DNA from: Xiphias gladius | Taxonomy: Eukaryota; Chordata; Actinopteri; Istiophoriformes; Xiphiidae | NCBI RefSeq assembly: GCF_016859285.1 | Contig: NC_053412.1 | Coordinates: forward strand, 6,137,789-6,201,788 | Length of the DNA stretch: 64,000 nucleotides | Direction of reading: 5' to 3' | In this document: positions 8,769 to 63,156 of the stretch, in pieces | Position numbering within the stretch: the stretch's first letter is position 1 | How the letters are laid out: every line of letters starts with the position of its first letter | Notes under the pieces: generated by a model | What the model was told of the DNA's origin: nothing | Database searches by the model: none | Seen by the model: only the letters and a program-made list of their open reading frames with translations | Made by a program: the position numbers and the translations under genes

Positions 8769-9700
8769 ATAGATAGATAGCGCTCCTTGTCACAGTGGAG
8801 CTGAAGAAATCTCCTGCTGAAAGCGCTCCGCTGTCTGACCAGCCGGCCGTGGAGGGGGATGCCAGATGTTCTCCATGATGTTCAACAGTTTGTGCGGCAT
8901 CCTCCTCTCTGCAACCAGCTCTAAGGGCTCCAGAGAAGTCCCCAGCACGGAGCCTTCAGCCTTACTGATCAGTTTGTGCTGTTTGCTGGTGTCACTCTGA
9001 TGCTGCTGCCAAAGCAGACTGGGAAAGGTCTGAAACATCTTGCTGCGAACATTAAAGGACCTAAGCTTCCTCACGGAGTAGAGTCTGCTCTGTCCCTTCC
9101 TGTAGACAGCCTCTGTGTTGTATGTCCAGTCCAGTTTGTTGTCGAGGTGGACTCCAAGGTTTCTGTGTCCCTGCACCACCTCCACCTCCTCTCCAAGACA
9201 AGAGCGGGTGGTTGTTCCCGCACCATGCCTCAAAGCAGTCCACCGGGTCTCTTCTGCACTCTGCCTCCTGTCCATGGTTTACACTCCCAACAACTGCTGA
9301 GTGATCCGAGCGCTTGTGCAGATGAGAGGACTCAGAGTTGTACTCGACGTTGGAGGGCGGTCAGGGTACCGTCTCCTGCGGTGCCCATGTGGGGCTGAGC
9401 ACTCGCACAGACACACATCCCCGCCGCCGCGCTCACTGTGGCCGATCTGTCATGTAGTCGGTAATCCAGGAGGTTGTGGAGGTAGGACCAGCTGGATTTT
9501 GGGTTGAACGTTTCCATGGCCTCTGACTGAAGTTTTTTCCAAGCTGCCTGATGCTTGTCACCACTCAACTGCACATCACGCATCAGTAAATGAGGGTTTC
9601 GGTACATAGGTTTCCATCTAACTGGTTTTAAGTGCATTTTCAGTTTGCACACAGAAAAACCTGAGTGAAATTTTGCGTCTGAAAGGGTAATATGCCACAA
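8769..9700 (-). mobile_element. Degenerate non-LTR retrotransposon (CR1/L2-like LINE), 3' part of ORF2
   Basis: On the minus strand the frame 9275-8790 encodes a C-terminal reverse-transcriptase region of the fish CR1/L2/Rex1-like type. Recognisable blocks are NLGVHLDNKLDW, then YRKGQSRLYSVRKLRSFNV, then AGSVLGT-like and LEPLELVAERR. Further upstream on the same strand (9700-9332) is a second frame with SSWSYLHNLLDYRL, probably an earlier part of the same ORF2 out of frame. A short GATA run at 8768-8780 lies just beyond the end, in the place where LINE 3' tails often carry short repeats. The catalytic YADD block is not seen and the frames are broken, so this is a truncated, dead copy. Confidence 0.7.
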
Positions 9701-10145: not shown

Positions 10146-11045
10146 TCATTTCTGCTTTTTCTTTTTTCCTTGTGGAGTTAATTGGGTAGGGCGTCCCTTT
10201 GCTCTCAGAACAGCCTCGGCTCTTCGTGGCCTGGACTCCACAAGATGTCGGAAACTTTCCTGTGAAACTCTGGCCAATGTTGACGTAATTGTATCACATC
10301 GTTTCTGCCGATTTGTCAGCTGCACATTCGTGCTGCCAATCTCCTGTTCTGCCACATCCCAAAGGTCTTCTACTGGATTGAGATCTGGAGTACGCCGAAA
10401 CCCACTGCCAGAAGAGAGGTCAGGGGAGAACGACCTCTCAAGCTGGTTCGTGAAACCAGCTTGAGACAACGTCCGCTTTATGACACGGAGCATTATCATG
10501 GAAGTAAGCGTGGCTGTGGCATTCAAACCGTGATTGACTGGTATTAAGTGGCCCAAGCGGGGGCCCAAATCCAGATTCATCAGACCAGGGTACGCTCCTC
10601 CAGTCTTCAGCTGTCCAAGTTTTCTGGAGAGCCTGTGCCCACTGCAGCCTCAGATTTCTGTTCTTGGCCGAAAGGAGTGGAGGCTGACTTCTGGCAGCCA
10701 ATCTGCCTAATTTTCAATGTGTCGTGCATTCTGAGAAGCTTTCCTGCTCACGGCAGTTGTAAGGGGTGGCTATCCGAGCTACCGTGGCCTCTCTGTCAGC
10801 TCCAGCCAGTCTGGCCGTTCTCCCCTGACCTCTCTTCTCTCTCCTGTCCTCAGAACTTCCGCTCACTGGATTTTTTTTTTTTAGGTTTTCGGCCCCGCTC
10901 TGAGTTAAAACTCTGGAGACCGTTGTGTGTGGAAAAATCCCGGGAGATCAGCAGTTTCAGAAACACTCAGACCAGCCCGTCTGGCACCAACAATTACGCC
11001 ACAGTCAAAGTGACTGAGATCACATTTTCCCCCTCATTCCTACGT
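10146..11045 (-). mobile_element. Dead Tc1-like DNA transposon with transposase remnants
   Basis: Reading the minus strand from about 11040 down, the N-terminal helix-turn-helix of a Tc1-like transposase is visible (VIVGARRAGLSVSETADL at about 11000-10940). It is followed near 10660-10575 by NRNLRLQWAQALQKTW and WSDESGF, and near 10400 by DLNPVEDLWDV, the block holding the last acidic residue of the DDE/D catalytic triad. The end reads HLVESRPRRAEAVLRAKG at about 10240-10190. The parts fall in different frames with stops between them, so the transposase is not functional. I did not find convincing terminal inverted repeats by eye. Confidence 0.8.
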
Positions 11046-20119: not shown

Positions 20120-29867
<9,748 letters not shown>

Positions 29868-30442: not shown

Positions 30443-31571
30443 TCACGTTTGGCTCCTGTGGAAGCGCAGGACAGACAGTCTCTCATTTCCAGCTCTTGTG
30501 GACAAACACGACTCTCCCTTTAAGCCGTATTGTCCCAGTAAACTGATGATCTCCTCTAGTGAGAAAGGAAAACATTGGTTGAACTTGTTGTTTTTTTGCA
30601 CTTAAAATCATTGTAAAGTGAGCAAACCCCACCTGGATCATTCTCAGCAATGGCAATGAGGTAAAACAACCCTTTACTGGACAGCAACTGTGCTACCGAT
30701 GGCAGAAATCTGTCCGTCACCTCTCGTCCTCGCTTCCCACCAGCCCAGGCAGCCTCTATACCTCTGCTGCCAACCTGAAAGAAAAGCACTCCTTGTTAAA
30801 AATCCTGTGACCTTTAGATAACCTGCTGAACAGAGCTGAACCACCTCTTCTGATGGTGTCACCACGTAGGGAGGGTTAAATACGAGGACGTCCACTTTTC
30901 CACTCAGCTGCGGCAGAAGACACGTCACCTGAGTGAAGGAAAGGAAAACATTTAATTAATGCATTTTTCTGCATGTTTCAATTCAAGTCCTTGCACATAA
31001 AGCATGTGACTGTAGAGGTCTTACCAGGTCTGTGATGACAGGCTGCAGTGAAACATTGTTACAGGAGGCTGTCTTCTCTGTGCACTGTGCCGCTGCAGGA
31101 TTAACATCAGTGCAACTGAAAGAGAAACGCATGCACGTATTCAAGATTAGAATATGTACGGTGCCTTTTCTCCCATACTTTTTACAAGTAAATCCATTTG
31201 TATGAGCAGGACATGTTGCTTTTTAATGTGAAAGTAGCTGACATGTATAAAGCTGAGGGTCCAACTATTGACGCCAGAAACGCAGACACCACTCCAGAGC
31301 CGCTGCCAACCTCCAAACACACACACGGGCTAATAAACAGCAAAGAGAAATACACGGATTATAAGATTCAGAGGTCATATCCACGTTAAATAAAGGAAAT
31401 GTGTGAGGGAAAAAATAGTAGAGCTGTGTCTGACCTCATCAGCTGCAGCCTCTGTGCATCTTTCTCCAGAGCGTCCAGCAACAGGAAGGAGTCCTCCGCA
31501 GGCTCGTAAACATCCTGGAAGTGTCCTCTCCCGGCGTGGGAGTAGACAGGTGTGGGATAACCTGTACACAT
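30443..31571 (-). CDS. n6amt1: N6AMT1 / HEMK2 methyltransferase, 6 exons
   Basis: This SAM-dependent methyltransferase works with TRMT112 and methylates the glutamine of the eRF1 GGQ motif; histone H4 methylation has also been reported for the family. Minus-strand exons in transcript order: 31571-31435, 31329-31243, 31115-31025, 30928-30845, 30774-30633, 30555-30443. Lengths sum to 654 nt, giving 217 aa (human 214). The N-terminus has GRGHFQDVYEPAEDSFLLLDAL. The SAM-binding loop LEVGSGSG is at residues 51-58, CTDVNP follows, and the catalytic NPPY is at 123-126 in VLVFNPPYVVTP. The C-terminal half has GIEAAWAGGKRGREVTDRFLP. All introns are GT-AG and phases agree. The ATG at 31571 gives the same distance to GRG as in human; an in-frame ATG at 31610 would add 13 residues. 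The gene is intact and convergent with gart, the two stops 575 bp apart. Confidence 0.95.
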
Positions 31572-31619
31572 GTTTAGCTTCCCGGCCGGAGTGTCGCTAA
31601 CCGCCTGCACGTGTTCCCG

Positions 31620-31870
31620 GCTCGCTTCACCATTCAGTGCGTAATTATTATTAGTAGCGTCCCCGGACTTTCACACGCTGTCGTTGTTTAATGCTTGAGC
31701 CAGCTTTAATTACAAAATACCGCTAATGTTCTTCATAAAAGACGTAAACTAACGCTGTGTGGGTTAGCTACCTTAGCTAGCACATTCACGAGCCACATCC
31801 TCCTTGTATACAACCTACGTCAGGGGACGTAACCTATCCCCTTCTTTGCCGTCTGACGTCAGTTGACGGG
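31620..31870 (-). promoter_or_regulatory. n6amt1: n6amt1 promoter region with a full CRE palindrome
   Basis: The region upstream of the n6amt1 start is CpG-rich compared with its surroundings and contains the CREB/ATF palindrome TGACGTCA at 31854-31861, about 285 bp before the ATG. Two half-site-like words, TACGTCA and GACGTAAC, lie just inside (31817-31832). No other gene starts nearby, so I assign the region to n6amt1. Confidence 0.5.
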
Positions 31871-33169: not shown

Positions 33170-35387
33170 CTCTAACTGAAGGAAAGAAGCAAATACCTAA
33201 AGGTTCTGGATGATAGACGTCTACTCTGAAGTTTTGATTTCACGGTTTTGACAATCAAGACGTCAGTGAATTTTTAAGTTCAACATCAAGAAAGAAGGCT
33301 CTAAGAAAAAGTGTTCAAGTGACTGTAACAGAATAGCTCAGTGTATTAGAAAAGGGTGTCCTTGGTCATTTTGAGGATGTGGGTTTGATCCCCAGGTGAT
33401 TGTGAGTTTTGAAGGAAAAGAGAAAAATGTATCAATTGCTAGAAGAAAAAGAGGGCAAGCATCTTTGACCAAATAACTCAATGACTTAGGTGGCTCCTTG
33501 GAAGGTTTTTCAGGTTGTGGCTTCAGTCCTCGATAGACTTACCAAATTTTAAAGGCCAACATTCAAAGGAAAGAATTGAAATCTTTAAGAGATGGCGCTC
33601 AAGTGTCTTTGACTAAATAGCTCAAGGGGGTCGAGGTTTCCTTCAAAGTTTTGAGGACATACATTCAATCTGTATGAAACTCAATAAATTTTGAAGTCCA
33701 GCACCCTAAGTGAAGCTTCAAAAGGACTAAAAGATATAGTGAACGCATCTCTGATTTAGTAGCTCAGGGCATTTGAGAACTTCTCTTATGTTTTGAAGTT
33801 ATGGATTCAAGCCTTAGGGCACTCAGTCTGTTTTGAGGTCCAACAACCAGAGAAAACACTCAAAGGATTTAAGAAATGTAGTTCAAACGTCTCTGGTCAA
33901 ATAACTCAGCATGTCGGGGAAACTGCTTGGTAGCTTTAGGGTTGTGAGATCCACAAATAAGACTGAAAAAACTCTGGGAAAGGATGAATTTCTGTCACTA
34001 AGTGACTGGCTCAATGAGTAAGACAACTATTTAGAAAACTTCAGGTCAAGGATTCAATCCTTGTGATGCTAACTCAGTAAATCTTGAAGTCCAGTATCCA
34101 AAGGAAATAGTCAAATGTTCCAAGAAACAAGGCTCAAGTACCTCTGATCAAATTGTTTAGGGAATACGAATACTACTCTGAAGGTTTGAGGTCTTGAATT
34201 CAATTGTCAGTAGTTGCAATGAATTTTGAAGTCCAACAACTAAACAAAACAGTCATAGGCACTAAGAAAGACAGCTCCAATATCTATGACCAAACAAAAT
34301 ACTCCCAAACCCTCAGATCAAACTGTTAGAGAACTGCTTGGAAATTCTGAGGTATTTGGTTTGATCCTTTTAATGCTCGGTGAATTCTGAAGTCCCACAC
34401 CCAGATGAAAGACATAAGGAGTCTAAGAAAGTGACTTGATGTGTGTCTGGTTAAATTACTCCGGGATTAAGATAAATGTTCATTTAGAGATTTAGAGGGT
34501 TTACGTTGTGATCCCAAGGAGCTGCACTGAATTTTAAGTCAAAGACTCAAAAAGAAAGGATTCAAATATCTGACAAGATAGCTAAAACTGTTGGACTACT
34601 CTGAAGTTCTGAAAAGTGGGCTTAATTCTTATGAGACATGATGAGTTCTTGAAGGCTGGTATGCAAAGGAAAGACTGAAAATCTCCAAGCAATATAGCAC
34701 AAATTATTCTAGTCAAATACCTCAGGAAGTGAGAGCCATACTCTTAAGTTTTGAGGTCTTGTGTGTGATCCTTATGAGGCACAGTTTTTAAGTCCAACAG
34801 CCAAAGTGAAGACTCGAAGGCTCTGAGATGTACAGCTCAGGAGTGTCTGATCAAATAGCTCTCAGTGTTTGAGAGCTGCTCTGAAATGTTGAGCGTTCAG
34901 TCGTTGGTGGATTTTAAAGTCGAACACCCAGGCGAAAGACCTCAGTACTCTAAAGAAAAGAACGCAAGTGTCCCTGACCAAATAGATGGGGAGCTAAGAA
35001 GGCTACTCTGAAGTTTTAAGGTCTTGGGTTTGATCCTCAGGAGCACCAGTAAGTTTTAAAGCCCAGCACCAAAGTAAAAACTCAAAGGATAAAATAATTA
35101 AAACTCAACTATCGGAGCTGATAGTTCAGACTCTTAGAAGACTGTTCTGAACTTCTAAGGATGTGGGCTCAATCCCTATGAGACTGAATGAGTTTTTGAA
35201 GGCTTGTGTGCAAAGGAAAGACTGAAAAGCTCTAAGAAAGACAGCTCAACTGTCTAACCAAATAGCTCAGGCTGCTTGAAGCGTGACTGGTAGTGCTGAG
35301 GATGTGGGTTTGATTCTTAAGAGACTTGACGAGTTTTTGAAGGCTGGTGTGCAAAGGAAAGACTGAAAAGCTTTAAGAAAGACTGTA
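33170..35387 (+). repeat. Diverged tandem array of about 140-bp tRNA-like units, block 1 (about 15 units)
   Basis: Each unit follows one plan. It starts with TCTGACCAAATAGCTCAG, which holds an A-box-like TAGCTCAG. Then come about 25-30 variable bases with TCTGAAGTTTTGAGG, a B-box-like GGGTTTGATCC or GGATTCAATCC, then GAGACT-GTGAGTTTTGAAGTC, CCAACACCCAAAG, AAAGACTCAAAGG and CTCTAAGAAAGACAGCTCAA before the next unit. Anchors lie near 33332, 33472, 33616, 33758, 33900, 34003, 34153, 34325, 34450, 34575, 34715, 34855, 34980, 35120 and 35258. The A-to-B distance in the first unit is 48 bp, close to that of a tRNA gene. Units are 20-40% diverged by eye. There is no open frame and no clear intact tRNA fold, so the units are tRNA-like in promoter layout only. 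Confidence 0.75.
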
Positions 35388-35651
35388 CTTTTTTGATTGT
35401 TAACACGTGATTTAAGTCAAAACTAGGTACTTTTGTTAGCCAATTTTGCATGCTTCAGCTAAAATAGCATTCTAGCTTAGCTACAACTATTTCTTGTTCC
35501 TTGTTAATGGGAAATTTAGAGATACACTTGTGTCTGGGTATATTCAAAATGTGGTCCATTAAGAAGCTGGATTAGAAGTCAAGAAGCCTTTTAGATGAGA
35601 GTCTAAAGCAAGATCAATTGTCCTTGACTTAGCACTTCTAGAGGCACCATG

Positions 35652-35692
<41 letters not shown>

Positions 35693-35905
35693 AAATTTGT
35701 GAGAGTGAAAGCCTTTTGAACCGGCTTCTTACTGCATCACATTTTAAATATGTCCAGGCACAAGTGTATCTCCTAATTTCCCATTACTGAAGAACTACAA
35801 ACAGGTGTCGTAAAGCTAGAATGCTATTTTAGCTGAAGCATGCAAAATTAGCTACCAAAAAGAATCTAGTTTTGACCTAAATCACATGTTAACAATGAAA
35901 AAACT
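35388..35905. mobile_element. Foldback / long inverted-repeat element with a (TA)n centre
   Basis: The left arm, about 35388-35600, begins TTTTTTGATTGTTAACACGT and contains GCATGCTTCAGCTAAAATAG and GAGATACACTTGTGTC. The right arm, about 35705-35905, is its reverse complement with roughly 15-20% mismatch, ending ACATGTTAACAATGAAAAAA. Between them is a TA dinucleotide run at 35655-35688. No transposase frame is present, so it is non-autonomous. Its insertion interrupts the tandem array. A copy of only the left arm is found at 37792-38042. Confidence 0.75.
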
Positions 35906-36199
35906 GCACTGACACATTAAACACAAAGAAAATGCAATGAATGTGTTGATATTTTAAGCAGCATTTACCAAATGTTTGTTCCATGTGCTCCAGTTCTTGG
36001 TATCTCCATGTGCAAGGAAGGGCAGACTGCCAAACAGGAAGTGGAAGATTCCAACAGGATTCATGAGGGAGGTTTTTGGTTGGGGGGAAAGATTGTTCTA
36101 ATTTGCTAAGTACTTCCTGTTTGACAGGTTTCAGTATTTTTGAGTGTTGGACTTTCAAATTCATTGCAGGTCCAAACCCGACCTCCAATCTTGAGTGTA

Positions 36200-37560
36200 G
36201 TCCTCTTACTCCCTGAGACATTTGACCACAGATGCTTGAACTGAGTTTATTAGAGCCTTCGACTCTTCGAGTCGTACCTGTGGATGTTGGTGGTCAAAAC
36301 CCAGTGAATTTAAGAGTTTCAAATAGATCAAAAGATACAAGACGTAAGAGAATGACTGTTGAACAAGCGCAAAGATAATTATATCTGCAAAATGTCTGAA
36401 TATTAGATGCTGGTAATTAAAAAATGGTTGCGGATTCAATGGTTTTGTTTACGGCAACTCTGAGCACTCAGTTAAGATTAGAAAACATAATCTCATCGCT
36501 GATTTGAAGCATAATACAGCACATGAATGTACGACCCCGGGAGTGGCTTGAAGCCTCTTACCCACACAAAAGACTAAAGAGTTCTGAGAAACGACACTTC
36601 AGTGGCTCAAGGTATAAGGCACCCTCTGTATAGGTTAGGCCTCAATCCTCAGGTCACTCTGTGGATTTTTGAAGGTTGACAGTGAGAATAAAGACAGAGA
36701 ACCTCTGAGAGGTAACGATCCATTCTTTTGTCACCTAGTGGCTTGATGGGGAAGCGCCCTTTCAATAAGGTTTGAGGTTATTGGTTCAAGCCTAGCTGAA
36801 TTTTGAAGTCCACCACCATGATCAAAGACTTAAGGACGTTAACAAAGGAGCTTCAAAGGTTTCTGGTCAAATAAGTTTAGTTTGACTGTGTCTAGAGACT
36901 GTGTTGGCAAACAACGTAATGGTGCTTTTCAGTGTTCAGTGGGAGTAAGAGGCTTACGCTTATGTTTCTTGGTCTTAGTTTTGATCCTTATGAGGCACAG
37001 TCAGTTTTTAAGTCCAACAGCCAAAGTGAAGACTCGAAGGCTCTGAGATGTACAACTCAGGAGTGTCTGATCAAATAGCTCTCAGTGTTTGAGAGCTGCT
37101 CTGAAATGTTGAGGTTGAGCGTTCAGTCCTTGTTGGATTTTGAAGTCGAACACCCAGGCGAAAGACCTCAGTACTCTAAAGAAAAGAACGCAAGTGTCCC
37201 TGACCAAATAGATGGGGAGCTAAGAAGGCTACTCTGAAGTTTTAAGGTCTTGGGTTTGATCCTCAGGAGCACCAGTAAGTTTTAAAGCCCAGCACCCAAA
37301 GTAAAAACTCAAAGGATAAAATAAATAAAACTCAACTATCGGAGCTGATAGTTCAGACTCTTAGAAGACTGTTCTGAACTTCTAAGGATGTGGGCTCAAT
37401 CCCTATGAGACTGGATGAGTTTTTGAAGGCTTGTGTGCAAAGGAAAGACTGAAAAGCTCTAAGAAAGACAGCTCAACTGTCTAACCAAATAGCTCAGGCT
37501 GCTTGAAGCGTGACTGGTAGTGCTGAGGACGTGCGTTTGATTCTTATGAGACTAAAATTT
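36200..37560 (+). repeat. Diverged tRNA-like tandem array, block 2 (about 8-9 units)
   Basis: The unit plan of block 1 resumes after a gap. B-box-like words include GGCCTCAATCC (36640), GGTTCAAGCC (36782) and GGTTTGATCC (37253). The part from about 36986 to 37553 is a near-copy of 34770-35330, sharing TTATGAGGCACAG, CAAATAGATGGGGAGC, ACTATCGGAGCTGATAG and GCTTGAAGCGTGACTGG in the same order with few changes. The first half (36200-36960) is as worn as block 1. Confidence 0.7.
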
Positions 37561-37791
37561 TTGAAGTCCAACACTCAAAGTGAAGAATGAAAAGCGCTAT
37601 CTGTCCCCCAGGGGAAAAGAGATAGAAGCAGGGAAACCACAAGCAGCTGAAATTTTACTGAACCTGGAGTTGTGACCACAGCTGTGTTATTTTTCATCCC
37701 TTCCCTTTTTTTCAGACAAATGCTGGAGGAGCAGACACTTGGTAACTGCTTCTTAAAATATCAACTCCTTCATTAGATTTGTGTGTTTTGT

Positions 37792-38042
37792 GTACTTTTT
37801 TGATTGTTAACACGTGATTTAAGTCAAAACTAGGTTCTTTTGTTGGCCAATTTTGCATGCTTCAGCTAAAAGAGCATTCTAGCTTAGCTAAACCAATTTC
37901 TTGTTCCTTGTTAATGGGAAATTTAGAGATACACTTGTGTCTGGGTATATTCAAAATGTGGTCCATTAAGAAGCTGGATTAGAAGTCAAGAAGCCTTTTA
38001 GATGAGAGTCTAAAGCAAGATCAATTGTCCTTGACTTAGCAG
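37792..38042 (+). repeat. Second copy of the left arm of the 35388 foldback element
   Basis: From GTACTTTTTTGATTGTTAAC to GATCAATTGTCCTTGACTTA this matches 35386-35636 at about 97% by eye, then stops abruptly where the first copy continues to its TA-rich centre. Together with 36986-37553 it marks a duplicated segment. The 230 bp between them (37560-37791) has no counterpart in block 1. Confidence 0.8.
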
Positions 38043-38049
38043 TTTTTAT

Positions 38050-42180: not shown

Positions 42181-42245
42181 AGAGTTTATTCACTTCTCTT
42201 CTTGCTCCTGCTTCTTGCTCTCATCCTTGTTTTTTCTCCTCCCTG

Positions 42246-43232
42246 ATGGACAGCAGCGGGGGCCCCCCGCTCTGCTTCCCCAGCCTTAACTCCTCCTGCA
42301 GGCGTCTGCCTCTGCCCCGCTTTGAGACTGCTCTTCTCTACATCCTGCTGGCCTCCGTCTCTCTGTTGACTGTGACTCTCAACCTGCTGGTCATCATCTC
42401 TATCTCTCACTTCAGGCAGCTCCACACCCCGACCAACACCCTGCTGCTGTCTCTGGCTGTGTCCGACCTGGTGGTGGGGCTGCTGGTGATGCCCATCGAA
42501 GGCCTGCGCTACATGGAGACGTGCTGGCTGCTGGGGAGGCTGATGTGTGCTCTGACTCCTTATGTTTCTTACTGTCTGCTCTCTGCCTCTCTGGGCAACA
42601 TGGTGCTCATATCCATAGACCGTTATCTGGCCATCTGTGACCCGCTGCTCTATTCCTCTAAGATCACCCTGAACAGAGTTAAAATTTTAATCTGTCTCTG
42701 TTGGGCCTGTTCTCTTCTCTACAATAGGCTTATTCTGATGGTACACCTAGGGCGGCTGGACAGGTTCAGCTCCTGCCATGGGGAGTGTGTGGTGGTCATC
42801 AGCCACATCTCAGGCATAGTAGATCTGTTCTTCTCTTTTGTCGGACCCTGTACTGCCATGGTTGTTCTGTATATGAGGGTGTTTGTTGTTGCTGTTTCTC
42901 AGGTGCGTGTCATTCGGTTGCAGACAGTAGCCACCGCTGTCATTGCAGCTCCAACTGCTAAAAAATCAGAGTGGAAGGCAGCCAGGACTCTTGGGATTGT
43001 GATAGCTGTGTTTCTAATGTGTTTCTGCCCTTATTACTATCCCTCTCTTGCAGGCGAGGATACCTCAAACAGCTTGTCGTACTTTGCTGTTCTGTCTTGG
43101 ATCATGTTGATGAACTCCTGTGTAAACCCTCTGATTTACGCTCTGTTCTACCCCTGGTTTAGGAAGGCTATCAAACTCATTTTCACCCTCAGAATACTGC
43201 AGCCTCACTCCCAGGAGGTCAAGATCCTGTAG
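42246..43232 (+). CDS. Trace amine-associated receptor-like GPCR, copy 1 (single exon)
   Basis: An intact 328-aa class A receptor with seven hydrophobic segments. TAAR signatures are IDRYLAICDPL at the end of TM3 and NSCVNPLIYALFYPWFRKA in TM7, the TAAR fingerprint. Key positions are Asn15 (N-glycosylation site NSS), Asp74 (2.50), Cys101 (3.25), Asp125-Arg126-Tyr127, Pro201 (5.50) and Pro262 (6.50). The amine-binding Asp at 3.32 is absent (Ser108), while Asp193 falls at 5.42. This swap is known in the large teleost-specific class III TAARs, which act as olfactory amine receptors in the nasal epithelium. Position 6.48 is Phe260 rather than Trp. Compared with copy 2 it has CDPLLY instead of CDPLRY, one extra codon near 42968 (SEW against ER), and a different TM4-TM5 region. 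No intron interrupts the frame. The exact orthologue is uncertain. Confidence 0.9.
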   Translation: MDSSGGPPLCFPSLNSSCRRLPLPRFETALLYILLASVSLLTVTLNLLVIISISHFRQLHTPTNTLLLSLAVSDLVVGLLVMPIEGLRYMETCWLLGRLMCALTPYVSYCLLSASLGNMVLISIDRYLAICDPLLYSSKITLNRVKILICLCWACSLLYNRLILMVHLGRLDRFSSCHGECVVVISHISGIVDLFFSFVGPCTAMVVLYMRVFVVAVSQVRVIRLQTVATAVIAAPTAKKSEWKAARTLGIVIAVFLMCFCPYYYPSLAGEDTSNSLSYFAVLSWIMLMNSCVNPLIYALFYPWFRKAIKLIFTLRILQPHSQEVKIL

Positions 43233-43239
43233 ACAGGGC

Positions 43240-45235
43240 TAACATGATCATTGAATGGAAACACTGTCTCACCACTGGCCTGGCCGTTTTGCTGCAGCAC
43301 CACAGAGGCTGCTCGACAGTGGCCTCAGGCACAGACTTTTATCATGTTGTCTCACAAGTGTTTAGTGATTAGGGTTTTTCTCATGAATACACACCTCGAT
43401 GTTAAGTGAAGCACATTAACCCTGGCTAATGTGACTTTTCACTGCAGATGTCTATCTAGCATGAAACACTGTATGCACTGCATTTTTGTATAGCAGCAAA
43501 ATATTATTAGCCATACAAATATAATGATACAAATCTAGAGACTTGTTTCTTCATGATCAATAGGATAAATGTGTTTTTGTTTTTGTTTTTAAAAAAAAAA
43601 AACATATTTCAGCTCTTCTTTCCACTTTACACTGGAAAAAAAATAATCCTTTTTCACTTTTGTTTTTACCAGATTGTCCAAAGAACCAAGAACTCATAAA
43701 AAAAAAGTGAATATGTGTTTACCGCACAAACAGGATGTACCAAAAATCTTGACAATATATTTAAATATTTTTCACATAATACATGCTGGTTAATCGTGAT
43801 ACAGTATAGCATATATACACATTCTAAATAAACAGACTACTCAGCTGGCTCTTTGCCTTGCACTGCCCCTAATTGTCAGTTTCTCTTATACATCTGCGTG
43901 GTTCAGTCTCTTCTAATCACTATCATTATTATTCAGCGTTTGAATGTAGCTATCATGCACTTCTCTTGCCAGCTCTGCATGGTCCGCATGTTCTGTCCCA
44001 CCGAAAATAAAGTCACGCCGAATAAAAATGTACTCAAATGTCCCTACACATTAAGAATAACACAACATATTCATAAATTTATTCTGAATGATCACCTTGT
44101 CTCTACGGACCTACCGACTTGGAAGGCACACGCAGGCGTCTGTGTGAATCAGGCCTGTTAATAACAACGATTAGAAAGTGGTTAGAAAACATTTGAGCGT
44201 GAAGGTTTACAGATACAGTTTTTTTTTGTTTTTTTTAAGTCATTTGAAATGGAAAAAATCTGAATAAGAGCAATGTAATATTCCTCTCCCCTCGGCCCAA
44301 CTCCTGCTGTGGTGCCCTCAAACAAGGCGTGCCCCCCCCCCTTATGGAGAATGGTAGAAGACTGTGACGTTTACAGTGTGATTCTTTGGTTATAAATCTG
44401 TGGAAATCAAAACCTGTGAATGATAGATTTGTTGAATAATTTCACACTTTGTTTATAAATGCAAGTCATCACACACCATATTGTAAAGGCCCGCAGTCAA
44501 CAGGCATGCACATCCTGGCTGTAGCCACAAGGGGGCGTTGTCGGGCTTTTAACCATTAAGACCAGAGTATAATCCGGAGGATGTTTGCTGCCACTTTTTA
44601 CAACAGAAAGAGCTACAGACCAGCAGCATAGTCTAAAAGCCACCTCCAGCCACCTTTTAAAGCATTGCACCCCCCAGGTTTTCACTTATTTTGAACCTCT
44701 CCAATTCATTCACTCCAACCTCCACTTCACAGACAATGTAGTTGGTGATGTTGCACTGGACTCATCAGCTGCGATGTCTACTGTTGCTACCCAGAAATAA
44801 CGTACAAGCCGTTTGAGCCTTCTGGTGCTTTTCGTTAGCAGCTACACTTCATAGAACCAGTGGATGAACTTCAGAGTGGCTGAAGGTGTAAACTGAAGAG
44901 CATTTATTATTCATAGCTTTCATAGCAAAGGAAAAATAAGCCTACTTTACGCAGACACGGGCAAAACTAATTACTTGCTCTGATTTTCTCGCATGAAACT
45001 ACCCATACTAAATTTATAAAACATTAAGTAAAACTACAAAACCAAATTTACAATCCCAACTCAAAATCCAACTAAAGCTAAACAGCTGAAATAGAGGAAT
45101 ACAAATCAAAATCAAATTGTAGGGAGGCAGAGGGGGAAGTGGTGATGATGAAGATGGACAGAGTTTGCATCAGTCATCAGGTGTTTGGAAAGGAGGAGGG
45201 CGGGTTAGGGGAGCATAAATGAACTGTCTGACAGG
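43240..45235. other. Spacer between the two TAAR genes
   Basis: No gene is seen. It contains A-rich and T-rich runs (43590-43601, 44220-44236), a C-run at 44332-44341, and a repeat-like block at about 44490-44680 (CCACAAGGGGGCG) of a type common in fish. The spacer has no clear similarity to the sequence downstream of copy 2, although the coding regions are nearly identical. Confidence 0.55.
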
Positions 45236-45262
45236 GAGTTGCATCTCTTCCCCTCCTCCCTG

Positions 45263-46246
45263 ATGGACAGCAGCGGGGGCCCCCCGCTCTGCTTCCCCAG
45301 CCTTAACTCCTCCTGCAGGCGTCTGCCTCTGCCCCGCTTTGAGACTGCTCTTCTCTACATCCTGCTGGCCTCCGTCTCTCTGTTGACTGTGACTCTCAAC
45401 CTGCTGGTCATCATCTCTATCTCTCACTTCAGGCAGCTCCACACCCCGACCAACACCCTGCTGCTGTCTCTGGCTGTGTCCGACCTGGTGGTGGGGCTGC
45501 TGGTGATGCCCATCGAAGGCCTGCGCTACATGGAGACGTGCTGGCTGCTGGGGAGGCTGATGTGTGCTCTGACTCCTTATGTTTCTTACTGTCTGCTGTC
45601 TGCCTCTCTGGGCAACATGGTGCTCATATCCATAGACCGTTATCTGGCCATCTGTGACCCGCTGCGCTATTCCTCTAAGATCACCCTGAACAGAGTTAAA
45701 ATTTTAATCTCTCTCTGTTGGATTTGTTCAATTATCTACAATGGGCTAATCCTAATGGACCACCTAGGGTGGTCGAAGAGGTTCAGCTCCTGTCATGGGG
45801 AGTGTGTGGTGGTCATCAGCCACATCTCGGGAACTGTTGACCTCTTCATCACCTTTGTCGGACCCTGTACTGTCATGGTTATTCTGTATATGAGGGTGTT
45901 TGTTGTTGCTGTTTCTCAGGTGCGTGTCATTCGGTTGCAGACAGCAGCCACCGCTCTCACTGCAGCTCCAACTGCTAAAAAGGAGAGGAAGGCAGCCAGG
46001 ACTCTTGGGATTGTGATAGCTGTGTTTCTAATGTGTTTCTGCCCTTATTACTATCCCTCTCTTGCAGGAGAGGATACCTCAAACAGCTTGTCGTACTTTG
46101 CTGTTCTGTCTTGGATCATGTTGATGAACTCCTGTGTAAACCCTCTGATTTACGCTCTGTTCTACCCCTGGTTTAGGAAGGCTATCAAACTCATTTTCAC
46201 CCTCAGAATACTGCAGCCTCACTCCCAGGAGGTCAAGATCCTTTAG
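45263..46246 (+). CDS. Trace amine-associated receptor-like GPCR, copy 2 (single exon)
   Basis: An intact 327-aa receptor, tandem paralogue of the gene 3 kb upstream. The start is the ATG at 45263, equivalent to copy 1; the frame is open upstream to an ATG at 45239, which would add eight residues not conserved in copy 1. It has the same TAAR marks: IDRYLAICDPLRY, a TM7 fingerprint with FYPWFRKA, Ser at 3.32 and Asp at 5.42 (VDLF). The first 345 bp match copy 1 exactly. Differences cluster in TM4, extracellular loop 2 and TM5 (ISLCWICSIIYNGLILMDHL and TVDLFITFVGPCTVMVI). A likely poly(A) signal AATAAA lies near 46463. It is an olfactory-type class III TAAR by its residues, with the ligand unknown. 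Confidence 0.9.
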   Translation: MDSSGGPPLCFPSLNSSCRRLPLPRFETALLYILLASVSLLTVTLNLLVIISISHFRQLHTPTNTLLLSLAVSDLVVGLLVMPIEGLRYMETCWLLGRLMCALTPYVSYCLLSASLGNMVLISIDRYLAICDPLRYSSKITLNRVKILISLCWICSIIYNGLILMDHLGWSKRFSSCHGECVVVISHISGTVDLFITFVGPCTVMVILYMRVFVVAVSQVRVIRLQTAATALTAAPTAKKERKAARTLGIVIAVFLMCFCPYYYPSLAGEDTSNSLSYFAVLSWIMLMNSCVNPLIYALFYPWFRKAIKLIFTLRILQPHSQEVKIL

Positions 46247-61900: not shown

Positions 61901-63156
61901 GTTTTTATGGACTGCCAGACCGATTTCATTTCAAAAATGAGTGGTAAATGCAAAAGAAAAGAAGCCTTGTTTGAAAGAAGATTGGAAAATGAAAATTAGA
62001 TAAATTATTGGAGAGGTCTATGATTTTCTGCCATTGCCCCGAAACATTCTAACAACAGATACATTAAAACCTAAAAGCTCTATTGCATTCAGATTGTCAA
62101 CAAAGCAAATTCAGTTTCTTAATTACATATGTTTTCAGTCATCCTAGAGGAGATCCAGCGGACCTCATGCCAACCCAGAGAGGTGTGTGTCGAGGTCGCC
62201 AAAGAATACCCAGAATCCACCAGTCAATTCTACCTCCCTCGCTGTGTGGCACTGCATCGGTGCGGTGGATGCTGCACCAACGAGGCCTTTTACTGCACGA
62301 ATACAAGTCACTCGCTTGTAAACAAGACAGTAAGGGCCTGGATTCTCTTCCTTCTTTTTGGTTTTCACCCTGTTTATTTCCATGTCAGACACTTTTCATC
62401 ACTCAAATCATTTAACACTCTGCTCCGTTACACGCACATACCTGTTGGTATTTTCTGCACTTACACCTCAAACTGCCTCAGGACAGAGGACAGAAACCAA
62501 TCTACCCAGTTATGTAACAAGCCTGTATGTATCATATCTCATCCTACTGCAATGGGACACCTTTTGGCTGCAACTGGACATCAAGACCATACAACTCACA
62601 CAGTCACGCACAGTTGTACAGTCTTTCAACAGTTACATCAAATTCTACGGCTGAAAAACTCATGACCAGTATTATTGTAATGACAGCAGCAGCAGAAACA
62701 AATTTACCAAGGATTATAATCAAAGAGAAACAACTTTGTTGTTATTGTTCTCTTACACAGTGTAGTTTTGCACATAAACACACACACAAACACTTCTAAC
62801 CTTCATCTCTCGTCTGTCCAGTTGATGGAACTGTCTCCACCCAGGATGGATCGCGCCGATGTCATGGTAACCTTCGTCAACCACACCTCATGCGAATGCA
62901 TCTCCAAACGGCCGCTCCACTCCATCATAAGACGAGCCGTGACAGATCACCTGTGAGTGAGGGTGAAGAGTGTGTGTGTGTGTGTGCATTTACAAAAATT
63001 TCTGAGTCAGTGTTTGTTATTTCATGCATTTATAATGGGTGTGTGTATGTAGGTGTTCCCCTCCTGAAGTTCCCTGCGCCTCAGGTTCATTATGGGATCC
63101 GGTGAACTGTGTGTGTGTCTCTACGGATGCGATAAACTACTCTGAGAGAGAGACAG
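55938..63156 (+). CDS. VEGF-C/VEGF-D subfamily growth factor (5' five coding exons; gene continues beyond the window)
   Basis: A secreted ligand for VEGFR-3/VEGFR-2 that drives lymphatic and vessel growth. Exons: 55938-56039, 61290-61542, 62139-62329, 62822-62952 and 63053-63156; phases agree, giving 260 aa before the right edge, where the frame is open at phase 1. A signal peptide (about residues 1-19, [18 protein letters not shown]) precedes a propeptide with [12 protein letters not shown], the VEGF-C-like block. The VEGF homology domain follows, with [14 protein letters not shown] and the PDGF/VEGF signature [13 protein letters not shown] (152-164). N-glycosylation sites are in CTNTS, VNKT and VNHTS. 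HSIIRRA matches the C-terminal processing region of VEGF-C/D, and the cysteine-rich tail begins with CSPPEVPC and NCVCVS. The propeptide looks like VEGF-C while IQRT-C and CVEVA look like VEGF-D, so I leave the symbol open (vegfd-like is my first guess). No further exon is seen in 63157-64000. Confidence 0.9.
56205..56580 (+). mobile_element. DNA-transposon-like fragment
   Basis: A decayed block in intron 1 of the VEGF-like gene. One plus-strand frame reads SHQIST and a neighbouring one [15 protein letters not shown], resembling the SPDLNPIE-W segment around the last catalytic acid of Tc1/mariner-type transposases. Stops interrupt it everywhere else. Ends were not determined. Confidence 0.4.
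56844..57480 (-). mobile_element. Degenerate non-LTR retrotransposon reverse transcriptase fragment
   Basis: On the minus strand, about 57360-57290 encodes [20 protein letters not shown], the conserved DLSKAFDTVDH region of LINE reverse transcriptases. Frame 57218-56844 then gives [11 protein letters not shown] (the PQGS motif), a region where the catalytic YADD would be expected but is not intact, LNYRKTKC and [19 protein letters not shown]. It is a dead fragment inside intron 1 of the VEGF-like gene, of a different family from the LINE at 8.8-9.7 kb. Confidence 0.75.
57490..59300. other. VEGF-like intron 1, no further feature recognised
   Basis: AT-rich intronic sequence with a short (GAAT)n run at 58400-58422 and no coding signal. 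Confidence 0.55.
59310..59820. repeat. Interspersed fish repeat with GTTAGCATGCTAACATG core
   Basis: A block with GTTGATCGGTTGGTCGACCA, GCAACTATTGGATGGATTGC, GTTAGCATGCTAACATG and GAGCCTCACAGAGCTG in an order typical of a widespread percomorph repeat. It has no coding capacity and lies in intron 1 of the VEGF-like gene. Confidence 0.55.
59825..61285. other. Rest of VEGF-like intron 1
   Basis: No gene is seen. A short repeat-like block near 60585-60625 (GGTCACATTACAGCACC, then TTGCTCAAGGGCACTGCAGC) resembles a common fish interspersed repeat. The acceptor of exon 2 (CTTCCAG) ends at 61289. Confidence 0.5.

Follow-up and report, generated by a model that had tools for sequence, protein, structure and literature searches.

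A tandem array of tRNA-headed units in the swordfish genome as a probable derived copy of a dispersed foldback element

We analysed a stretch of 64,000 nucleotides of the swordfish (Xiphias gladius) genome (contig NC_053412.1, positions 6,137,789 to 6,201,788; hereafter the window), in which a tandem array of diverged units lies between an N6AMT1-like gene and trace-amine-receptor-like (TAAR-like) genes, about 1.6 kb from the start of the former as judged by eye. The whole window was scanned with a profile seeded from one array unit at a cut-off of E<0.05, which yielded 25 units at 33.2-37.6 kb and none elsewhere. A second profile, built on 21 non-redundant window units, delineated 25 diverged units of about 142 bp plus one partial unit over 33195-37599; its other matches at E values up to 5 were one weak minus-strand match within the array and one match outside it (E 3.3). 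The more than 20 diverged, head-to-tail units of about 140 bp noticed in a preliminary description of this DNA are thus present. Counts based on 21 window units leave out four near-identical recent duplicates (p34871, p37224, p37364 and p37505), which were kept in a pooled set of 133 units made up of 26 from the window and the units of 12 other loci.

The array was confirmed, but its run of units is interrupted, partly inverted and partly duplicated. The first block, on the plus strand at 33195-35388, holds 15 full units and the partial unit at 33888-33946 (E values from 0.02 for the partial unit to 1e-33, with pairwise identities in agreement). The run is then broken at 35389-36117 by an inserted element at 35384-36112, which consists of a TA microsatellite between inverted arms (35431-35578 and 35713-35860; 148 nt, 82% complementary) and part of which recurs beside the array at 37728-38044. 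Profile matches place two minus-strand units at 36118-36354, followed by a second block of eight plus-strand units at 36455-37599. Within this block, 36941-37595 (plus strand) is a copy of 34725-35371 at 92.4% identity over 658 aligned columns, a joint duplication of several units. The units are otherwise strongly diverged: mean pairwise identity among the 25 is 55%, the median Kimura two-parameter distance among the 21 is 0.74, and identity to their own consensus ranges from 53 to 78%. Tandem Repeats Finder, a program of the kind suggested earlier for deriving the consensus, missed the array when run on the window. With runs of about 1-15 units, such low identity and, as described below, a dispersed distribution, the family does not consist of long, homogenised head-to-tail arrays of the satellite type. 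Exact motifs are likewise sparse, TAGCTCAG occurring four times in the array and six times in the window (2.3 expected) and GGTTYRATCC four times in the array (0.5 expected). The A-box-then-B-box order that had been ascribed to every unit is therefore a property of the consensus and not of exact motifs in each unit.

Three lines of evidence bear on a tRNA ancestry of the unit. The first concerns the CpG columns of the B box, C56-R57 in tRNA numbering. In the 21 non-redundant window units this pair reads TG in ten, CA in nine, and CG and TA in one each, and no other column pair is as extreme (Fisher p 0.0003); in 116 pooled units it reads TG in 41, CA in 43, CG in 17 and TA in three. Such a split between TG and CA is what a decayed CpG leaves behind, and the majority consensus of the 133 units has the B box GGGTTCGATCC without any correction. 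Secondly, the distance from T8 to G53 is exactly 45 nt in 16 of 24 measurable window units (13 of 20 once the four near-identical duplicates are removed) and also in the pooled consensus, as compared with 44-46 nt in 20 of 24 vertebrate tRNAs, so that the tRNA-like A-to-B distance stood up. Thirdly, the pooled consensus was compared with ten tRNA genes of the same genome, located by an Rfam tRNA search and ARAGORN. It scored 50 against a tRNA-Thr-TGT gene (L037) and 49 against a tRNA-Ala-TGC gene (L050), while the best of 3000 shuffles reached 37 and the reverse complement 23; the proposed alignment of the consensus with tRNA was thus positive. Since Thr-TGT and Ala-TGC tie as the closest of the ten genes, no isotype was chosen. 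Among the 24 vertebrate tRNAs the pooled consensus places Ala-TGC at the top (49; next 42); with window units alone Phe and Ala tie, and sums over the 21 units cannot separate Phe, Lys and Ala.

Comparisons with other tRNA sets were less discriminating. A profile of vertebrate tRNAs found no match in the array. The five best window matches of a phage T5 tRNA profile all lie in the array on the plus strand (two are duplicated copies of one unit), with a top score of 11.1 bits that barely exceeds the 10.3 bits of the highest-scoring of 30 Markov windows. Pairwise scores against T5 tRNAs were nearly strand-blind (24.5 for forward and 24.8 for reverse-complement units), and those against the vertebrate tRNAs were strand-specific (forward 26.7, reverse 21.9, background 21.2). 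Taken together, the CpG decay, the resemblance between the pooled consensus and the genome's own tRNA genes, and the canonical A-to-B spacing support a derivation of the unit head from a tRNA, as had been suspected, and with a tRNA-homologous head at the canonical box distance the unit belongs among tRNA-derived sequences.

The units are not tRNA genes in the sense of recognised tRNAs with paired stems. ARAGORN reported no tRNA in the window, and Rfam had no match there that reached the gathering score, nor any tRNA at E<=10, so the tRNA-finder check that had been proposed detected none; the acceptor stem is absent from the pooled unit. An intergenic position between the N6AMT1-like and TAAR-like genes would suit another reading, raised in part in the preliminary description, in which the array is a selected, insulator-like set of TFIIIC sites or RNA polymerase III (Pol III) promoters. 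Pairing in the T stem amounts to 78% of cells, compared with 73% for shuffles, and none of 1000 shuffles of the 133 units reached the observed value (in a control that ignores relatedness). With its CpG pair set aside, the B box is marginally better conserved than the remaining columns (P 0.02 in the window, 0.06 for the pooled units). However, the A box is not conserved above other columns in either the window or the pooled set, and the most conserved stretch tested, the tail around TTTTGAAGTCCAACA, lies outside both boxes. Not one of the 133 units has an exact B box, four have an exact A box and none has both; a relaxed B-box pattern occurs in 20, and 60 carry between the boxes a TTTT, which is a Pol III stop. 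Because no unit keeps both boxes and many have TTTT between them, a present Pol III or TFIIIC role of the array appears unlikely and is not supported by these sequences. An array of TFIIIC sites would consist of intact B boxes, and we give this explanation very little credence.

Searches of the swordfish's own 691-Mb genome revealed that the unit is not confined to the window. A query with the whole array stretch, in which the splitting element was left in place, matched at 100 places, some of which represent the splitting element, and the pooled unit gave at least 81; in the latter search 40 of 161 candidates were scored, so that its counts are lower bounds. The pooled-unit matches group into at least 36 clusters, distributed over 18 contigs; of these clusters, 22 contain two or more units and 14 showed one. 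These dispersed matches rule out a single local satellite. The best dispersed copies are 86-87% identical to the unit consensus, which indicates that the family is old.

Twenty loci were read at length, besides two complex ones (L010 and L011, at C13:662-667 kb and C490) where the splitting element also adjoins units. Among the twelve loci fetched first (L010-L021), units on the minus strand lie to the left of units on the plus strand in eight of the ten that are not complex (L012-L017, L019 and L021), and L018 and L020 hold minus-strand units only. All five pooled-unit clusters with both strands have the same minus-then-plus order; one of these is L016, and the other four (L052-L055), picked because both strands had been seen, showed it in 4/4. 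As a guard against this biased choice, six further loci (L062-L067) were selected because the search had shown one unit in each. Five of the six were again minus-then-plus, with 7-9 units, and L066 had four plus-strand units. Overall, 17 of the 20 loci are foldbacks, that is, long inverted arms with internal tandem repeats as in Foldback and Galileo elements, with 1-8 units in each arm of the copies read (partial units counted). The earlier idea of a local satellite consequently did not survive. The two inverted units of the window at 36118-36354 and the plus-strand units that follow them reproduce the minus-then-plus order of the dispersed elements.

The foldbacks have further parts in common. 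A centre of about 55 bp, defined from L013 and L015, is found at the junction of the arms in nine of the 15 other foldbacks (L016, L019, L052, L053, L054, L062, L063, L064 and L065). An outer module is present in inverted orientation at both ends of nine of the 17 (L013, L014, where the left one is weak, L015, L016, L019, L052, L054, L055 and L067) and at one end only of the remaining eight. A second tRNA within the outer module was considered, as the module contains GGTTCAAATCC; 27 of 1000 shuffles reached its score and the candidate was dropped. The shared order, centre and outer modules point to one mirror-image progenitor and are not explained by repeated local inversions. They also weigh on the suggestion that the array is a cluster of decayed tRNA genes, or a local satellite formed by tandem duplication of one tRNA gene and its spacer. 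Head-to-tail units with tRNA heads and a dense tRNA gene cluster in the same genome are what such an origin would lead one to expect, and tRNA gene clusters are described as common in zebrafish and stickleback (PMC2888827). As a description of the unit heads this holds, but the sequence that multiplied is a palindromic repeat: the same layout recurs on many chromosomes, unlinked loci have centre and outer modules in common, and the unit has no acceptor stem. We therefore regard a tRNA gene cluster as very unlikely. Opposed arms of like units in 17 loci might instead suggest that the palindromes give rise to hairpin RNA or Piwi-interacting RNA through double-stranded RNA formed from the two arms; since the units are heavily diverged (53-78% identity to the consensus in the window), this is in our estimation the least probable of the alternatives.

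Outside the outer module the sequence differs between the two sides of the element, so that two kinds of subterminal sequence can be distinguished. Beyond them lies a 20-bp terminal motif, CTACCTTACCAACAGTGGAC. Allowing up to five mismatches, a level at which shuffled sequence gives 0-1 matches per 97 kb, the motif is found inverted at both ends of L017 (1731 bp end to end), L018 (1610 bp) and L055 (1171 bp), and at one end of L014, L019, L021, L052, L053, L054 and L067; the remaining loci lack it. With up to one mismatch it has 25 matches in the genome, as against none for a backwards control, and a comparison of coordinates puts nine of these within about 2 kb of unit clusters, pointing towards the clusters. 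Six motif loci outside the unit lists (L056-L061) were also fetched. One of them, L060, contains the outer module and three minus-strand units at the expected place, and all six have a tract of CA or TG no more than about 20 bp beyond the motif, as if the family inserted into, or carried, microsatellites. At L057 the two motifs are about 406 bp apart from motif to motif, the second with five mismatches.

These observations bear on whether the dispersed copies could be short interspersed elements (SINEs), namely a tRNA-headed SINE copied by the machinery of long interspersed elements, with tandem and inverted multimers forming at the copies. The tRNA-derived head, the dispersal and the ends near simple repeats all agree with this, SINE-derived satellites are known in squamates (PMC10702118), and 14 of the 36 or more clusters showed a single unit. 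However, the six one-unit clusters that were read proved to be five foldbacks of 7-9 units and one run of four plus-strand units, and we know of no solitary copy. The shared centre and the inverted outer modules imply that what dispersed was the mirror-image form itself. The mirror-image layout and the inverted termini, with the terminal motif in opposite orientations at the two ends of L017, L018 and L055, are unlike a SINE, and no target duplication was resolved. A SINE-type retroposon is thus an improbable explanation, if a less remote one than the others considered.

We think it likely that the window array is one copy, rearranged and expanded in place, of a non-autonomous foldback element, dispersed and long since dead, with tandem tRNA-derived arms. 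The ancestral element would have had at its ends the 20-bp terminal inverted motif, the two unlike subterminal stretches and the outer module inverted at both ends, and its arms would have consisted of head-to-tail units of about 142 bp pointing away from the centre of about 55 bp. In each unit a tRNA head, now decayed and closest among the genes compared to Thr-TGT and Ala-TGC, would have been joined to an unrelated stretch of about 70 bp, and these heads may once have worked as Pol III promoters or as protein-binding repeats. Most likely, a tRNA gene or SINE head was incorporated into the arms of a non-autonomous inverted-repeat transposon, and unequal exchange may then have lengthened and shortened those arms. 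Whole elements would have spread, often next to CA/TG tracts that they may have chosen as targets, moved by a transposase supplied in trans from elsewhere; some copies would have lost one arm or the entire palindrome. At the window locus the plus-strand run would have reached 15 units, been split by another inverted-repeat element and been partly duplicated, thereby expanding into a short satellite-like array.

Several observations count against this proposal. The pairing of the D, anticodon and acceptor stems in the 133 units is not above that in shuffles. At C9:9.19 Mb a single pair of matches, read by eye, has the order plus then minus, and the centre was not seen in six of the 17 foldbacks. 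The terminal motif, at up to five mismatches, was not found near the units of L010-L013, L015, L016, L020, L062-L064 or the window. Of the six loci fetched through the motif, L060 alone has units. L056 (C1) and L057 (C8) have the motif and both subterminal kinds and no palindrome, and L058, L059 and L061 have one subterminal kind and no units; neither arrangement had been predicted. The former two may be deletion forms or a form preceding the acquisition of arms, and the motif loci that lack units would fit either a wider family marked by the motif or loss of the palindrome. No consistent target-site duplication emerged, the words shared between the flanks of eight loci fitting no pattern. No transposase turned up among the longest open frames inspected in six 3-kb loci, an inspection that included no profile search aimed at one. 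Finally, the window copy yielded neither an outer module nor a terminal motif nor a significant centre, and no target-site duplication was resolved there. A possible, weak remnant of an element end follows directly after the last unit, at 37618-37633 on the plus strand, as a 16-bp match to the outer flank of L017. Its score of 32 was reached by none of 500 shuffles, and its scores against three other ends were reached by 1, 8 and 95 of 500.

The closest known systems in architecture are Galileo and Foldback, which are dispersed and have long inverted ends with internal tandem repeats (PMC3573991). Many of the dispersed copies of Galileo in Drosophila are described as consisting of two ends only, and the F subfamily carries direct tandem repeats of about 210 bp inside its long inverted ends, in numbers that differ between the ends (PMC3573991). 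Unlike Galileo as portrayed in that source, the swordfish element has a tRNA-derived unit, a vertebrate host and ends near CA/TG tracts, and we found neither a transposase nor a 7-bp flanking pair. The Tetris foldback of Drosophila virilis and its TIR-220 satellite provide a precedent for a satellite that arises from the inverted ends of a foldback (PMC9659126), which is what we propose for the window; in the available parts of that account a tRNA origin is not mentioned, in contrast to the unit described here. SINE-derived satellites of squamates resemble the array as vertebrate tandem units with a tRNA-related head and a box B, often with few units per locus (PMC10702118). They differ in that their source SINE is known, whereas none was identified here, and most loci of the present family are mirror images. 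The same source lists amphibian repeats with tRNA-like stretches, namely Xenopus OAX and satellite I, newt PolIII/TAN, Rana/polIII and Hy/polIII, for which a SINE origin is called unproven (PMC10702118). Compared by description only, these too are tandem units with a stretch resembling tRNA, but they measure about 200-360 nt (OAX being longer) against about 142 bp here, and the portions of the source at hand make no mention of a palindromic layout (PMC10702118). We came across no foldback whose arms derive from tRNA in a literature search that did not extend to subscription papers and repeat databases. The tail pattern had no matches in viral contigs.

A more specific scenario, which we put forward tentatively and consider rather doubtful, is that a tRNA or SINE head was captured as the arm repeat of a vertebrate foldback, so that up to about a dozen Pol III promoters, divergent and facing outward, would have been present in a living copy. 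In that case the tRNA heads may have acted as protein-binding repeats for TFIIIC or the transposase, or driven transcription of both arms, and the element would unite a tRNA-derived repeat with an inverted-repeat DNA transposon and would give rise directly to tRNA-like satellites, the window locus among them. Under the foldback explanation itself, which we hold to be likely, three classes of repeat that are usually kept apart, tRNA-derived repeats, foldback transposons and satellites, become linked. A palindromic, dispersed progenitor with tandem tRNA-derived arms would also offer a concrete, testable route to the tandem repeats with tRNA boxes of vertebrates such as frogs and newts. More generally, an array that looks local within one window may be a fragment of a dispersed element.

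The genes around the array were assigned by domain and homology searches. An N6AMT1-like exon lies at 31386-31670 on the minus strand, and GART-like exons with GARS_A and AIRS domains lie at 22637-26932. On the other side, a tandem pair of very similar trace-amine-receptor-like genes occupies 42183-43232 and 45209-46246, with 7tm_1 in both. For the second gene, TAAR13 structures are the nearest that have been solved, and TAAR13 is a fish class of TAAR. An exon with a PDGF/VEGF domain lies at 62123-62665. Two minus-strand stretches were read by eye as remnants of mobile elements: a Tc1-type transposase remnant at 10146-10649, for which Pfam gave none, and a reverse-transcriptase fragment at 8790-9278, for which Pfam gave ALKBH8_N. 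Elsewhere in the genome, the survey of tRNA genes encountered tRNA-Thr genes densely clustered on the two strands of a stretch of about 22 kb (C11:1246961-1269058; L022-L027, L035, L036, L040 and L047-L049), and on C1036 five tRNA matches spaced about 14-15 kb apart, with one gap of about 28 kb, as if a tRNA gene formed part of a large tandem repeat.

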